Below, in pieces: positions 33,049 through 37,890 of a stretch of DNA of 64,000 nt. Below the pieces are notes generated by a model. That model was not told the origin of the DNA. It saw only the letters and a program-made list of their open reading frames with translations, and did no database searches. Position 1 is the first letter of the stretch. Each line of letters begins with the position of its first letter. The stretch is from NCBI GenBank assembly GCA_017304475.1, contig JAFKKV010000017.1:1-64000 (forward strand), read 5' to 3'. Source of the DNA: Hyphomicrobiales bacterium. Lineage in GTDB: Bacteria; Pseudomonadota; Alphaproteobacteria; Rhizobiales; Phreatobacteraceae. The position numbers and the translations under genes are program-made.

Positions 33049-34251
33049 ATGACGCTGCCGCTTGCCGATCTGCGCATTCTCGACATGACCAATGTGCTGG
33101 CCGGCCCGTTCTGCTGCTATCAGCTCGCCCAGCTCGGCGCCGACGTCATCAAGGTCGAGACGCCCGGCACCGGCGACCTGGCGCGCCAGCTCGGCGCCGA
33201 TCCGGAACTCAACAAACGGCTGATGGGCGCCTCGTTCCTGGCCCAGAACGCCGGCAAGCGCTCGGTGACGATCAACCTGAAGAGCCCGGCCGGCAAGGCC
33301 GTCTTCCTGCGCCTGGTGGCGAGCGCCGACGCTGTGATCGAGAATTTCCGGCCGGGCGTGATGGATCGCCTGGGGCTCGGCTACGAGGCGCTGAAGGCCG
33401 TCAAGCCGGACCTCGTCTATTGCGCCATATCGGGCTTCGGCCAGGACGGGCCGCTGAAGGACAATCCGGCCTATGACCAGATCGTGCAGGGCCTGTCGGG
33501 GGTGATGAGCGTCACCGGCGACAAGGCGTCGGCACCGCTGCGCGTCGGTTATCCCGTTGCCGACACCTTCGGCGGCATCACGGCCGCCTTCGCGGTGGCC
33601 GCCGCGCTGTTCCGGCGCGAGCGCGACGGCGCGGGCGAGAAGATCGACGTGTCCATGCTGGAAGCGACCCTCGTCTCGATGGGCTGGGCCGTGTCCAACT
33701 GGCTGATCGCCGGCGTCCGGCCCGAGCCGATGGGCAATGAGAACATGACCGCCAGCCCGTCCGGCACATTCCGCACCGGCGACGGTCTGCTCAACATCGC
33801 CGCCAACAAGCAGGAGCAATTCGTCACGCTTTGCCGGCTCATCGGCCGGCCGGAGCTTACCGGGGATGCCCGCTTCGCCCAGCGCGAGGACCGCAAGCGG
33901 CATCGTGCCGCCCTGACCCTCGAAATCGAAGCCGCGCTGGCGACAAGGCCCGCGGCCGAATGGGCGGCGCTGATGAACAAGCAGGGCGTGCCGGCCGGCG
34001 AGGTGTTGAGTGTGCCCGAAGTGCTGGAGCACCCGCAGGTCGAGGCGCGCGGCCTGATCAAGCACTTCCCTGACGCTCCCGGCGTCGATCGCAAGGTTTC
34101 CGTCGTCCGTGCCGGCTTCCGCCTCGCCAGCGGCGACCCGCAGCCGCTGACGCCGCCGCCGGCGCTCGGCGCCGACACCGCCGCCATTTTCGCCGAGCTC
34201 GGCTATGCGCCGGCCGACATCGACCAGTTGCGCGCCGACGGCGCGATCTGA
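33049..34251 (+). CDS. CaiB/BaiF family (type III) CoA-transferase
   Basis: This 400-residue enzyme has AGGAG upstream. The family start LADLRILDMTNVLAGPFCCYQLAQLGADVIKVETPGTGD is present in pieces, including Asp169-type catalytic context in YDQIVQGLSGVMSVTG. It transfers CoA between acyl-CoA and a carboxylate. The next gene is a citryl-CoA-lyase-like protein 14 bp away, so the CoA ester formed may be cleaved by it. Confidence 0.92.
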   Translation: MTLPLADLRILDMTNVLAGPFCCYQLAQLGADVIKVETPGTGDLARQLGADPELNKRLMGASFLAQNAGKRSVTINLKSPAGKAVFLRLVASADAVIENFRPGVMDRLGLGYEALKAVKPDLVYCAISGFGQDGPLKDNPAYDQIVQGLSGVMSVTGDKASAPLRVGYPVADTFGGITAAFAVAAALFRRERDGAGEKIDVSMLEATLVSMGWAVSNWLIAGVRPEPMGNENMTASPSGTFRTGDGLLNIAANKQEQFVTLCRLIGRPELTGDARFAQREDRKRHRAALTLEIEAALATRPAAEWAALMNKQGVPAGEVLSVPEVLEHPQVEARGLIKHFPDAPGVDRKVSVVRAGFRLASGDPQPLTPPPALGADTAAIFAELGYAPADIDQLRADGAI

Positions 34252-34265
34252 AGGAGCCGAGCATC

Positions 34266-35138
34266 ATGACCGGACCCGCCACCGCCGCAACCAGGCCGGC
34301 AACCACGCCGGAGGACTGGTGGCGGACATCGATCATCGAGATGCAGCCGGGCATGATCCGCTATCGCGGCTATGCCATCGAGGAGCTGATCGGCCAGGTC
34401 GGCTTCGTCGACATGATCTATCTGATGACCCGCGGTGAATTGCCCTCCAGGCCCGCCGCGACACTTCTGGAGGCAGCCCTGGTCGCCGCGGTCGACCACG
34501 GCCCCCAGGCGCCTTCGATCGCGGTGGCGCGCATGGCCATCACCTGCGGCGTCGGCATCAACAACGCCATGGCCTCGGCGATCAACACGCTCGGCGACGT
34601 CCATGGCGGCGCCGGCGAGCAATGCGTCGAACTCTATCAGGCCATTGCAGGCCGGCTCGCAGAAGGCGAACGCGACGCCGGAGCGATCAAGCAGGCGGCC
34701 GCCGACGCGATCGACGCGCTGAAAGCCCGGGGCATCCACCATGTTCCGGGCTTCGGCCACCGGTTCCATCCGCGCGATCCCAGGGCGCCGCGCCTGCTCG
34801 GGCTGGTCGACGACTGCGCCGCGACAGGCGCGATCTCCGGCCGCTTTGCCGCGATCGGCCGGGCCGTGGAGGATGTCCTGGCCGAACGGCGCGGCGGTCG
34901 GCGCGTGCCGATGAATATCGACGGCGCCACCGCGGTCATCTTCGCCGAGCTCGGCTTCCCGCCACCGCTCTGCCGCGGCCTGTTCGTCCTGTCGCGTTCG
35001 GTCGGCGTGCTCGCCCACGCCTGGGAGGAAAGCCAGTCCGACTATCGCAACAAGGGCCCGATCCCGCGCCAGATGACCTGGACCTATGACGGCCCCGCCG
35101 CCCGTCCGGTGCCCGGGTCCGGCGGATCGGCCGAATGA
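34266..35138 (+). CDS. Citrate-synthase-fold protein, citryl-CoA lyase-like
   Basis: This 290-residue protein is much shorter than citrate synthase (about 430) and keeps only the core. Catalytic residues align: His113 in GDVHGGAG, His165 in GFGHRFHPRDPR and Asp219 in MNIDGATA. The length and ending (QMTWTYDGP) fit bacterial citryl-CoA lyase, which splits citryl-CoA or a homologue into acetyl-CoA and an oxo-acid. Pairing with a CoA-transferase supports a degradative direction. Confidence 0.88.
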   Translation: MTGPATAATRPATTPEDWWRTSIIEMQPGMIRYRGYAIEELIGQVGFVDMIYLMTRGELPSRPAATLLEAALVAAVDHGPQAPSIAVARMAITCGVGINNAMASAINTLGDVHGGAGEQCVELYQAIAGRLAEGERDAGAIKQAAADAIDALKARGIHHVPGFGHRFHPRDPRAPRLLGLVDDCAATGAISGRFAAIGRAVEDVLAERRGGRRVPMNIDGATAVIFAELGFPPPLCRGLFVLSRSVGVLAHAWEESQSDYRNKGPIPRQMTWTYDGPAARPVPGSGGSAE

Positions 35139-35229
35139 CGGACGCGCGATCGCCTGTCGCGGCATCCGGGATGGAGTAGCATCACGCCCATACGAGGCGG
35201 CTGATGACCTCGATCCTCGGGAGGCGACC

Positions 35230-36054
35230 ATGAACGCCAGCAAATATCTGCCGATCACCCTGCTCAAGGGCCATACGGTCTTCGTCACCGGCGGCGGCAG
35301 CGGCATCAATCTCGGCATCGCCAAGAGCTTCGCTTCCGTCGGCGCCGACATCGCGATCTGCGGCCGCACCGCCGAACGTCTCGAGAGCGCCGCCGCAGAG
35401 CTGCGCCATATGGGCGCCCGTGTCTCGACCTCGGTCGCCGATGTCCGCGACTACGCCGCGGTCGAGACGGCGCTCGCCAAGAGCCGCGAGGAACTGGGGG
35501 CGGTGCACACGATGGTCTGCGGCGCGGCCGGCAATTTCGTCGCACGCGCCGAGGCGATCAGCGCCAAGGGCTTCCGGACGGTGGTCGAGATCGACCTGCT
35601 CGGCGCCTTTCACGGGGCGCACGCCGCCTTCGAGCAGTTGAAGGAGACACGCGGCAACCTGATCTTCGTCTCGGCCGGACAGGCCTACCTGCCCTTCGCC
35701 TTCCAGGCCCATGTCGGCGCGGCCAAGGCCGGCATCGACAATCTCATGCGCAACCTCGCGCTCGAATGGGGCCGCCACGGCATCCGCTCCAATTCCATCG
35801 TGCCCGGCCCGATCGAGGGCACGGAGGGGATGAAGCGGCTCGGCGGCGCGGCCGGCGAAGACACCTGGAAACGCATGGTGCCGCTCGGGCGCTACGGCAC
35901 GGTCGACGATATCGGCGGCATGGCCGTGGTGCTCGCCTCGCCGCTCGGAGCCTATGTCACCGGCGCCCAGATCGTGGTCGACGGCGGCATCGGGCTGCAG
36001 GGCTCGGGCCTGTTCAACCAGGCCATGGAACAGGCCATGCCGGCATCGCCGTGA
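35230..36054 (+). CDS. SDR of the 2,4-dienoyl-CoA reductase type
   Basis: This 274-residue protein starts at the ATG at 35230. It has an NAD(P)-binding VTGGGSGINLGIA and lacks the classical YxxxK. Instead it reads AFQAHVGAAKAGIDNL, followed by NSIVPGPIEGTEGMKRLGG. This is the pattern of peroxisomal/mitochondrial 2,4-dienoyl-CoA reductases rather than ordinary SDRs. With the upstream CoA-transferase and lyase it implies catabolism of an unsaturated acyl-CoA. Confidence 0.85.
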   Translation: MNASKYLPITLLKGHTVFVTGGGSGINLGIAKSFASVGADIAICGRTAERLESAAAELRHMGARVSTSVADVRDYAAVETALAKSREELGAVHTMVCGAAGNFVARAEAISAKGFRTVVEIDLLGAFHGAHAAFEQLKETRGNLIFVSAGQAYLPFAFQAHVGAAKAGIDNLMRNLALEWGRHGIRSNSIVPGPIEGTEGMKRLGGAAGEDTWKRMVPLGRYGTVDDIGGMAVVLASPLGAYVTGAQIVVDGGIGLQGSGLFNQAMEQAMPASP

Positions 36055-36425: not shown

Positions 36426-37673
36426 CTAGCCCCCTTTCGCCGAAGCTCCCGCGCCCCTCGCCTCCAACCCGTCAGCCGCTAGCCCGCCCGGCCGGGCCCG
36501 CGCCTTGAGGCGGGACACCGCCTCGGCGAGCGGAATGTCGGCCTGCGCGCCGCCGCGCTCGCGCAGGGTCACCCGCCCCTCCCGCATCTCGCGCCCGCCG
36601 ACGATGGCGATCACCGGCACCGCCATGTCATGCGCCGCCACGATACGCCGTGACAGGGTCTCGCCGTCGTCATAGGCGACGGCCCGGATCCCGGCATCCT
36701 CGAACGCCGCCAGGACCTCGGCGCCGTATCCGGCCTGGTCCCTGCCGATCGGCGCGACCGCGACCTGGTCCGGTGACAGCCAGAACGGCAGCACGCCGCC
36801 ATGGTGTTCGAGCAGGATCGCGATCATCCGGCCGAGCGATCCGAAAATGGCGTGATGGATCATCACCGGCCGCGCGCGATCGCCGTCGGGCGCGATATAG
36901 GACGCTTCCAGCCGCTCCGGCAGCACGCCGTCGAGCTGCACCGTGCCGCACTGCCAGGATCGTCCCAGCCGGTCGCGCAGCGCGAATTCCAGCTTCGGTC
37001 CGTAGAAGGCACCTTCCCCCGCATTGATCTGAGGCGCGAGGCCACAGCGCCGCGCGGCATCGCCGAGCTTGGCCTCCGACCAGTCCCAGGTCGCGTCGTC
37101 GCCGGCGCGCACCACCGGCCGTGTCGACAGCGCCACCTCGCAATCGGGAAAGCCGAGGTCGCGATAGACCTCGCCCAGCAGGGCGATGAAGCTCGCGACT
37201 TCGCCTTCCACATCCTCCTCGCGGCAGAACACATGGGCATCGTCCTGCTCGAAGGCGCGTGTCCGCATGATTCCGTGCAGCGAGCCGGAAGGCTCGTTGC
37301 GGTGGCAGGCGCCGAACTCGGCATAGCGGATCGGCAGCTCGCGCCACGAGCGCAGGCCCTTGTTGAAGATCTGCACGTGGCACGGGCACGACATCGGCTT
37401 CAGCGCCATCGCCTGCTCGCCGTCGTCGACCCGGAACATATGCGCGCCGAACTTGTCCCAGTGGCCGCTGCGGATCCAGAGCTCCCTCGGCAGCAATTGC
37501 GGCGTCCGCACCTCGGCATAGCCGGCCCGGCGCATCTTGTGCCGGACATAGTCCTCCAGCACCCGGTAGATCGCGTAGCCGCGCGGATGCCAGAACACCA
37601 TGCCCGGCGCATCCTCCTGAATGTGCCAGAGCTTGAGTTTGACGCCGAGATGTCTGTGGTCGAGATCGTCCAT
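36426..37673 (-). CDS. Short threonyl-tRNA synthetase without TGS and editing domains
   Basis: This 415-residue class II synthetase consists only of the catalytic core and a short anticodon-binding domain. Bacterial ThrRS is normally about 640 residues with N-terminal TGS and editing domains; here the protein begins at LKLWHIQEDAPGMVFWHP, the start of the catalytic domain. Zinc ligands Cys96, His147 and His273 keep the spacing of the E. coli enzyme (51 and 126 residues). Motif 2 is YAEFGACHRNEPSGSLHG. Motif 3 reads GSLGRM, with Gly instead of the usual Glu. It would charge tRNA-Thr but lacks the domain that clears Ser-tRNA-Thr. It is probably a second, conditional copy, because its leader has a threonine attenuator. 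Confidence 0.9.
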   Translation of the reverse strand: MDDLDHRHLGVKLKLWHIQEDAPGMVFWHPRGYAIYRVLEDYVRHKMRRAGYAEVRTPQLLPRELWIRSGHWDKFGAHMFRVDDGEQAMALKPMSCPCHVQIFNKGLRSWRELPIRYAEFGACHRNEPSGSLHGIMRTRAFEQDDAHVFCREEDVEGEVASFIALLGEVYRDLGFPDCEVALSTRPVVRAGDDATWDWSEAKLGDAARRCGLAPQINAGEGAFYGPKLEFALRDRLGRSWQCGTVQLDGVLPERLEASYIAPDGDRARPVMIHHAIFGSLGRMIAILLEHHGGVLPFWLSPDQVAVAPIGRDQAGYGAEVLAAFEDAGIRAVAYDDGETLSRRIVAAHDMAVPVIAIVGGREMREGRVTLRERGGAQADIPLAEAVSRLKARARPGGLAADGLEARGAGASAKGG

Positions 37674-37715
37674 GGCTCATTCCTCACGATGGGAAAAAGA
37701 GCGGACGGGATCGTC

Positions 37716-37760
37716 AAAAACCAGAAAGGCCCCGTCCGTCGCCGGCGGGGCCTTTTCTGG
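37716..37760 (-). terminator. Rho-independent attenuator terminator upstream of ThrRS gene
   Basis: Read on the minus strand, CCAGAAAAGGCCCCG (37760-37746) pairs with CGGGGCCTTTCTGG (37734-37721), a 14-bp stem with one bulged A. TTTTT follows at 37720-37716. The terminator lies 43 bases before the ThrRS start and 18 bases after the leader-peptide stop, as in amino-acid attenuators. Confidence 0.88.
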
Positions 37761-37820
37761 GTGAATGACGCTTGTCTCTAGCGCGCGCAACCAGAAGGCG
37801 ACCCGCCAAAAGCGGTCGCC
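37751..37820 (-). promoter_or_regulatory. Alternative pairings of a threonine attenuator
   Basis: On the minus strand, segment 1 GGCGACC (37820-37814) pairs with segment 2 GGTCGCC (37803-37797). The overlapping CCTTCTGG (37798-37791) can instead pair with the terminator's left arm CCAGAAAAGG (37760-37751), 8 bp with a two-base bulge, and so prevent the terminator. A ribosome stalled at the Thr codons (37814-37828) would cover segment 1 and favour the antiterminator. One reaching the stop codon (37778) would cover segment 2 and allow termination. Confidence 0.78.
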
Positions 37821-37855
37821 GTAGTGGTCGAAGCGGCTGAAAGAAGCTTGCTCAT
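37778..37855 (-). CDS. Threonine leader peptide for the ThrRS attenuator
   Basis: This 25-codon open frame runs from ATG at 37855 to TAG at 37778. Codons 9-15 read S-T-T-T-A-T-A, so four threonine codons (ACC, ACT, ACG, ACC) fall within five codons. This matches the organisation of leader peptides such as thrL. A GAGG lies two bases before the ATG, too close to act as a normal ribosome site. The predicted promoter would start the transcript at the ATG itself, so translation may be leaderless, as known for the trpL leader of Sinorhizobium meliloti. Function is inferred from codon content and the terminator directly downstream. Confidence 0.8.
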   Translation of the reverse strand: MSKLLSAASTTTATAFGGSPSGCAR

Positions 37856-37861
37856 GCCTCG

Positions 37862-37890
37862 TATATGGCGGCAAAGCGCCCTGACGTCAA
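37862..37890 (-). promoter_or_regulatory. Predicted sigma-70 promoter of the leader-ThrRS transcript
   Basis: On the minus strand TTGACG (37890-37885) is followed by a 17-base spacer and CATATA (37867-37862). Seven bases further is the A of the leader ATG (37855), which would be the transcription start. Confidence 0.6.

Follow-up and report, generated by a model that had tools for sequence, protein, structure and literature searches.

Control of an aminoacyl-tRNA synthetase operon by leader-peptide attenuation is known from pheST of Escherichia coli. Among the genes for threonyl-tRNA synthetase (ThrRS), thrZ of Bacillus subtilis is induced by threonine starvation and encodes a full-length enzyme. 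Transcription antitermination controls this auxiliary gene (Putzer et al. 1992, as cited in PMC4787780). Other studies report or predict leader-peptide attenuation for Streptomyces trpS and leuS (PMC1262725) and for paralogues of hisS in bacilli (PMC2965389). According to the account given in PMC4787780, the auxiliary, indolmycin-resistant trpS1 of S. coelicolor is also attenuation-controlled (Vecchione & Sello 2010). Three further systems bear on the present work: the ThrRS T2 of Anabaena is inducible and proofreads poorly, with T1 proofreading in trans (Rubio et al. 2015, PMC4787780); the trpL leader mRNA of Sinorhizobium meliloti is leaderless, and trans action of its products rnTrpL and peTrpL is documented (PMC7298713); and the inhibitor-resistant ThrRS ObaO has Ser in place of Gly463 and Met in place of Leu489 (PMC11252418).

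Here we analysed the window, a 64,000-nucleotide stretch of DNA from a Hyphomicrobiales bacterium. On its minus strand lies what we read, with a probability of about 0.93, as a ribosome-mediated transcription attenuator that would induce an auxiliary, editing-less ThrRS when Thr-tRNA is scarce; the case for regulation by the leader is made from sequence. A synthetase behind a leader-peptide attenuator is not a new kind of system, because pheST, trpS, leuS, trpS1 and the hisS paralogues are precedents. The original prediction for this locus had rightly named pheST, but its list was too short, as trpS, leuS, trpS1 and the hisS paralogues belong there too.

Organization of the locus

Promoter, leader peptide and three hairpins precede the short ThrRS gene (Table 1). 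The promoter had been predicted at 37862–37890; its −35 and −10 elements could be read directly, and TTGAC is retained at 35 of 36 homologous loci, with a −10-like hexamer 16–19 nt further on. A generic promoter scan did not list this promoter because it wants a spacing of 16–18 nt and a closer match of the −10 to the TATAAT consensus. The leader mRNA is probably leaderless, because the ATG lies only ~6 nt past the −10; the start codon likewise stands a few bases past the −10 across the homologous loci. Base-by-base reading of the 25-codon leader confirmed the predicted Thr at codons 10, 11, 12 and 14, and within the Bradyrhizobium clade (17 loci) codons 10, 12 and 14 are Thr in 17/17 and codon 11 in 16/17. 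Both strands of the window together hold three Thr-rich short open reading frames (ORFs), and a GC-rich hairpin follows only this one.

Table 1 Coordinates of the leader, its RNA elements and the short ThrRS gene in the window
Feature	Position	Strand	Description	Basis
Promoter	37860..37890	minus	−35 TTGACG (37890-37885); −10 CATATA (37867-37862) or TATACG (37865-37860)	Sequence
Leader peptide ORF	37778..37855	minus	25 codons + TAG; ATG at 37855; MSKLLSAASTTTATAFGGSPSGCAR	Sequence and comparison
Segment 1	37815-37812	minus	CCGC; overlaps the last Thr codon	Sequence
Segment 2	starts 37807	minus	GGCGGG	Sequence
Segments 1:2 hairpin	37803..37815	minus	CCGC-TTTT-GGCGG, immediately past the Thr codons	
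Segments 2:3 antiterminator	37743..37808	minus	TGGCGGG..GCCTTCTGG pairs with CCAGA..AAGGCCCCGCCG	
Segments 3:4 intrinsic terminator hairpin	37721..37760	minus	CCAGAAAAGGCCCCGCCGGCGACGGACGGGGCCTTTCTGG	Folding
Segment 3	37751-37745	minus	CCCCGCC	Sequence
T5 tract of the terminator	37716..37720	minus		Sequence
Auxiliary ThrRS, 415 aa	36426..37673	minus	ATG at 37673; stop ends at 36426	NCBIfam, Pfam

The 1:2, 2:3 and 3:4 hairpins and the T5 terminator of the original prediction were all borne out by sequence and folding, and the three hairpins are mutually exclusive. With segment 1 masked and segment 4 not yet made, 2:3 is the minimum-energy fold (−31.9 kcal/mol; 5/200 shuffles as stable); the 3:4 terminator reaches −32.2 kcal/mol (z −5.3; 0/200 shuffles as stable), and its core, GCCCCG..CGGGGC, is invariant across 23 aligned sequences. 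The covariation score of 2:3 was 0.142, compared with 0.05–0.09 in slid controls and with 2/500 shuffles as high, and the 2:3 pairing was weaker when segments were swapped between 12 lineages (p ~0.03, or 0.05 minus one near-duplicate). This signal is modest, segment 3 being almost without variation because it has to pair with both segment 2 and segment 4. For 3:4, the score was 0.090 against 0.100 for a one-base slide, a control that is uninformative for this hairpin because 3:4 barely varies.

Conservation of the switch with the short gene

We scored 36 short-ThrRS loci from Alphaproteobacteria and Burkholderia-type Betaproteobacteria, with protein identities down to ~54%, including Burkholderia and Caballeronia replicons (L135, L136), three genomes of Betaproteobacterial type (L142–L144) and an extra family (L145). 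A Thr-rich leader with 3–10 Thr codons (for example, MNARFVTTTTTTTTTANGGLGGGCTS) stands at the equivalent position in 36/36. Folding across homologues, which had been proposed as a check, yielded the 1:2 hairpin in 28/28 leaders folded, the 2:3 core in 28/28 with segment 1 masked and the 3:4 hairpin in 28/28. Spacing is close to constant as well: 9 nt from the last Thr codon to segment 2 (GGCGG) at 30/36 loci, 27 nt from segment 2 to the stop at 28/36, and 27–33 nt from the stop to segment 3 at nearly all of the 36 (the values of 71–72 at L022 and L023 are an artefact of a second CCCCGCC further down). Such spacings are what a ribosome ruler would require. Despite this fixed geometry, the leader peptides have little in common except the Thr runs and GG. 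At one locus (L029, genome G214), the leader MQSIILTVATIKVTAVGGALGRCA mixes Ile and Val with only three Thr codons, as would suit a leader that responds to the supply of isoleucine or valine as well.

Short-ThrRS homologues lacking the Thr-rich frame or the terminator, which the original prediction had named as evidence against it, number none among the 36 loci with an intact 5′ region. The sole short-type copy without a leader, L017 from an Acidobacteriaceae metagenome-assembled genome (MAG), has itself lost its first 97 codons.

Specificity and related attenuators

A covariance model (R1) was built from 23 leaders and run on 385 genomes, where its 13 top-scoring matches (E at most 3e-25) coincide one for one with the 13 short-ThrRS loci present. 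Twelve of them had contributed to the model, and the result therefore shows specificity more than discovery. R1 also detects six leaders left out of its building, Betaproteobacterial and others, with E from 1e-28 to 1e-11. That the housekeeping thrS might share this attenuator was rejected: R1 gave no convincing match at long-thrS loci, and the arrangement of leader plus hairpin was found upstream of 0/25 full-length thrS genes. A survey of 1.6 Mb yielded 106 Thr-rich short ORFs. The hairpin follows 74 of them, and all 74 precede a short thrS or asd (aspartate-semialdehyde dehydrogenase). This control and that at the long thrS genes rule out a chance Thr run.

The next R1 matches after the short thrS genes are leaders ahead of asd in which Thr and Lys codons are mixed (L064–L069, L072, L076 and L078–L080), and the terminator core is the same in the R1-detected loci. 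The window's own genome has a leader, MAFAATTKSTKTTPAAKSGTAG, ~190 nt upstream of asd (L167, contig C51), in which a simple pattern found no shared terminator core. Ribosome profiling and Western blot in S. meliloti detected SEP5, which is encoded in the 5′ untranslated region of a gene termed aspartate dehydrogenase and contains six codons for Thr and three for Lys (PMC10117765). The short-thrS switch is thus one instance of a broader type of proteobacterial attenuator, whose signal would be set by its codon run. Further R1 matches have other codon runs (L070, L071, L073, L074, L075 and L077); the one at L075, MSEFRFSGMWFSYWSTGRGPKVQRMR, is rich in Phe, Trp and Tyr and precedes a GNAT-like gene.

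The short ThrRS protein

The 415-aa product matches NCBIfam TIGR00418 (thrS; 5.5e-133, above the cut-off), and its sequence leaves no doubt about the fold. Pfam assigns to it PF00587 and PF03129 only, the class II core and the anticodon-binding domain, and neither a TGS nor an editing (tRNA_SAD) domain, in agreement with the editing-less ThrRS gene originally predicted; the long ThrRS of the same genome additionally has PF02824 and PF07973 (TGS, tRNA_SAD). The zinc ligands C334, H385 and H511 and the motif 2/3 arginines (E. coli numbering) are kept in 26/26 intact short proteins, as are the other listed substrate residues, and the short ThrRS is likely to be an active synthetase. Near the active site, the short proteins differ from the long ones by N333S (26/26), V376T (24/26) and R512H (25/26), the last adjoining the zinc ligand H511. 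In the anticodon-binding domain, E600 and R609 remain. Charging of tRNA(Thr) by the short enzyme is nevertheless not certain, because it has lost N575, K577 and R583, which are invariant in 16 long enzymes.

Distribution and transfer

The full-length ThrRS of the window's genome is encoded elsewhere, on contig C50. A full-length enzyme accompanies the short one in 13/13 genomes of the class sample and is present in 14/14 genomes of the named loci (for G407, a contig yielded only its N-terminal part). The short gene is an auxiliary, second copy and never the sole ThrRS in the genomes tested: the original prediction was right that it is a ThrRS gene, but it is not the cell's main one. Its distribution is patchy, with the gene present in 1/12 genomes of the window's own family, 5/120 of the Bradyrhizobium family and 13/385 of the class. 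Some soil bacteria carry this spare, shortened ThrRS, and each intact copy examined sits behind the RNA switch.

In a tree, the short proteins group together as a single clade (support 0.87) within the alphaproteobacterial ThrRSs, and in the catalytic core they are 89% identical, compared with ~78% for the long ones in the same genomes. Across the promoter–attenuator–gene block, the window copy has 85–89% nucleotide identity to Bradyrhizobium and Tardiphaga copies; the similarity extends from 37893 (up to 37953), shortly before the −35, to ~36472 within the 3′ end of the gene, and beyond the block no similarity to those loci was found. G011, a complete genome from this genus, runs colinear with the window up to 36054 and again from 38827, with no cassette in between. 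Across 28 loci, the short gene has no conserved neighbours. The simplest reading would be that promoter, attenuator and gene were transferred between families as one unit. Assembly contamination (5.44%) is an unlikely source of the cassette, because the flanks are 78–88% identical to and colinear with G011.

Besides L017, two short-ThrRS copies are damaged, L012 by an early stop and a deletion and L015 by a frameshift; the damage may reflect decay or assembly error. Phage and prophage records from Acinetobacter, Vibrio and Sinorhizobium (H16–H23) hold ThrRS genes 41–51% identical to the short ThrRS. Beside the cassette, positions 33049–36054 (plus strand) carry successive genes for a family III CoA-transferase, a citrate-synthase-like protein (the C-terminal Pfam domain within an ORF of 290 aa) and a short-chain dehydrogenase; G011 is without the citrate-synthase-like stretch (~34252–35126), its flanking genes being colinear. 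PADLOC gave no match to a defence system at the locus.

Proposed mechanism and alternatives

Immediate ribosome loading is expected because transcription would begin at or next to the leader AUG. When Thr-tRNA(Thr) is plentiful, the ribosome would clear the Thr codons, reach the stop and disturb segment 2, whereupon 3:4 would form and RNA polymerase would terminate ahead of the gene. When Thr-tRNA(Thr) is scarce, we infer that a stalled ribosome sits over the Thr codons and masks segment 1 (CCGC), leaving segment 2 (GGCGG) to pair with segment 3 (CCCCGCC); the terminator would not form and the short ThrRS would be induced. Were translation absent, 1:2 would form and protect the terminator. The presumed physiological role of the enzyme, if active, is to add threonylation capacity when the housekeeping enzyme fails to keep tRNA(Thr) charged. 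Several points speak against this reading: the modest covariation, the residues lost from the anticodon-binding domain, the mixed leader at L029 and the consideration that more synthetase alone would leave a threonine shortage unrelieved.

The terminator is very stable by itself, and the hairpins might be taken for a constitutive transcript end or an RNA-stability element, with the Thr run as incidental coding in a GC-rich region. The comparison of loci leaves this reading almost no probability, and on those grounds we regard it as already refuted: Thr-rich leaders with fixed geometry stand at every scored short-ThrRS locus, none precedes the 25 long thrS genes, and the arrangement is found only ahead of genes of threonine or lysine/threonine metabolism. 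We find it hardly credible, too, that a T-box or synthetase autorepression as in E. coli thrS controls the short gene; each is known from other thrS genes, but the parts here are those of a leader-peptide attenuator, and a scan of the whole window gave no match to a T-box or any other Rfam family at the gathering score. Additional action in trans by the RNA or peptide of the leader, as for rnTrpL/peTrpL of S. meliloti, could be envisaged, given a probably leaderless small mRNA with a strong terminator in the same bacterial order and the trpL precedent (PMC7298713); the peptide is unconserved apart from the Thr run and GG, however, and we hold such action to be improbable.

The likeliest alternative accepts the attenuator and takes the short protein to be a neofunctionalised ThrRS, for example one that is inhibitor-tolerant, low-zinc-tolerant or error-prone and tolerated, and that is induced upon a block of the main ThrRS. 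The substitutions by the active site, the altered loop of the anticodon domain, the patchy and mobile distribution and, by analogy, Streptomyces trpS1 (indolmycin), ObaO (obafluorin) and Anabaena T2 (low zinc) are in its favour. G463 and L489, the residues changed in ObaO, are however unchanged in 26/26 short proteins, and no neighbour is conserved, hence no biosynthetic cluster or zinc operon; we put this alternative at somewhat below even odds. Two narrower candidates were rejected, namely antibiotic self-resistance through the ObaO substitutions (G463 and L489 being kept) and a ThrRS of the Anabaena T2 type (the editing domain is wholly absent here and there are no conserved neighbours). 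We raise as a tentative and rather doubtful proposal a self-contained, horizontally mobile 'sense and replace' cassette, in which the attenuator would read failure of the resident ThrRS (through an inhibitor, metal loss or threonine shortage) and only then supply a functionally different, diverged, editing-less enzyme. Proofreading would come in trans from the resident enzyme, or the cell under stress would tolerate Ser-for-Thr mistranslation.

For the preferred reading, an attenuator that answers to scarce Thr-tRNA, the switch is linked exclusively to the short paralogue across two classes of Proteobacteria, and we therefore take the short gene to be kept as an inducible reserve. It is surprising that an editing-less paralogue should be reserved for low Thr-tRNA, when Ser mischarging should matter most, and the reason for inducing a ThrRS without proofreading in a cell low on Thr-tRNA becomes a testable question.

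Comparison with known systems

A Thr-leader attenuator on thrS appears to be undescribed in the open-access literature searched, where we found no report of a thrS that follows a Thr leader. Threonine appears to join the few amino acids whose synthetase genes are under leader-peptide attenuation, and the switch would be a third mode of thrS gene control. In mechanism it resembles E. coli pheST, which also has a leader with codons for the synthetase's own amino acid, a terminator and an antiterminator; unlike the attenuator at the present locus, that of pheST controls the sole, housekeeping PheRS rather than an auxiliary or mobile copy. S. coelicolor trpS1, as described in PMC4787780, is likewise a second synthetase under ribosome-mediated attenuation, induced by a shortage of its own charged tRNA, but it concerns Trp in Actinobacteria, has a resistance function shown and involves no loss of an editing domain. 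S. meliloti trpL/rnTrpL shares the attenuator and, probably, the leaderless leader mRNA and belongs to the same bacterial order, and differs in its Trp codons, biosynthetic operon and trans-acting products. The Thr/Lys leaders before asd, including SEP5, have the same architecture and terminator core as the short-thrS switch, and differ in their mixed codons and in controlling a biosynthetic gene. The enterobacterial Thr operon leader works alike, but the leader at this locus is not a member of that family, the Rfam Thr_leader covariance model having no match in the window.

Among auxiliary ThrRS genes, B. subtilis thrZ is the functional analogue, although its T-box reads uncharged tRNA directly and has no leader peptide; the switch described here would be a convergent counterpart of that T-box. 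Anabaena T2 is similarly an inducible second ThrRS beside a constitutive, accurate one, but it is controlled by Zur and zinc within an operon, and its editing domain is degenerate rather than absent. By analogy with T1, which proofreads for T2, the resident long ThrRS could proofread in trans for the short enzyme.
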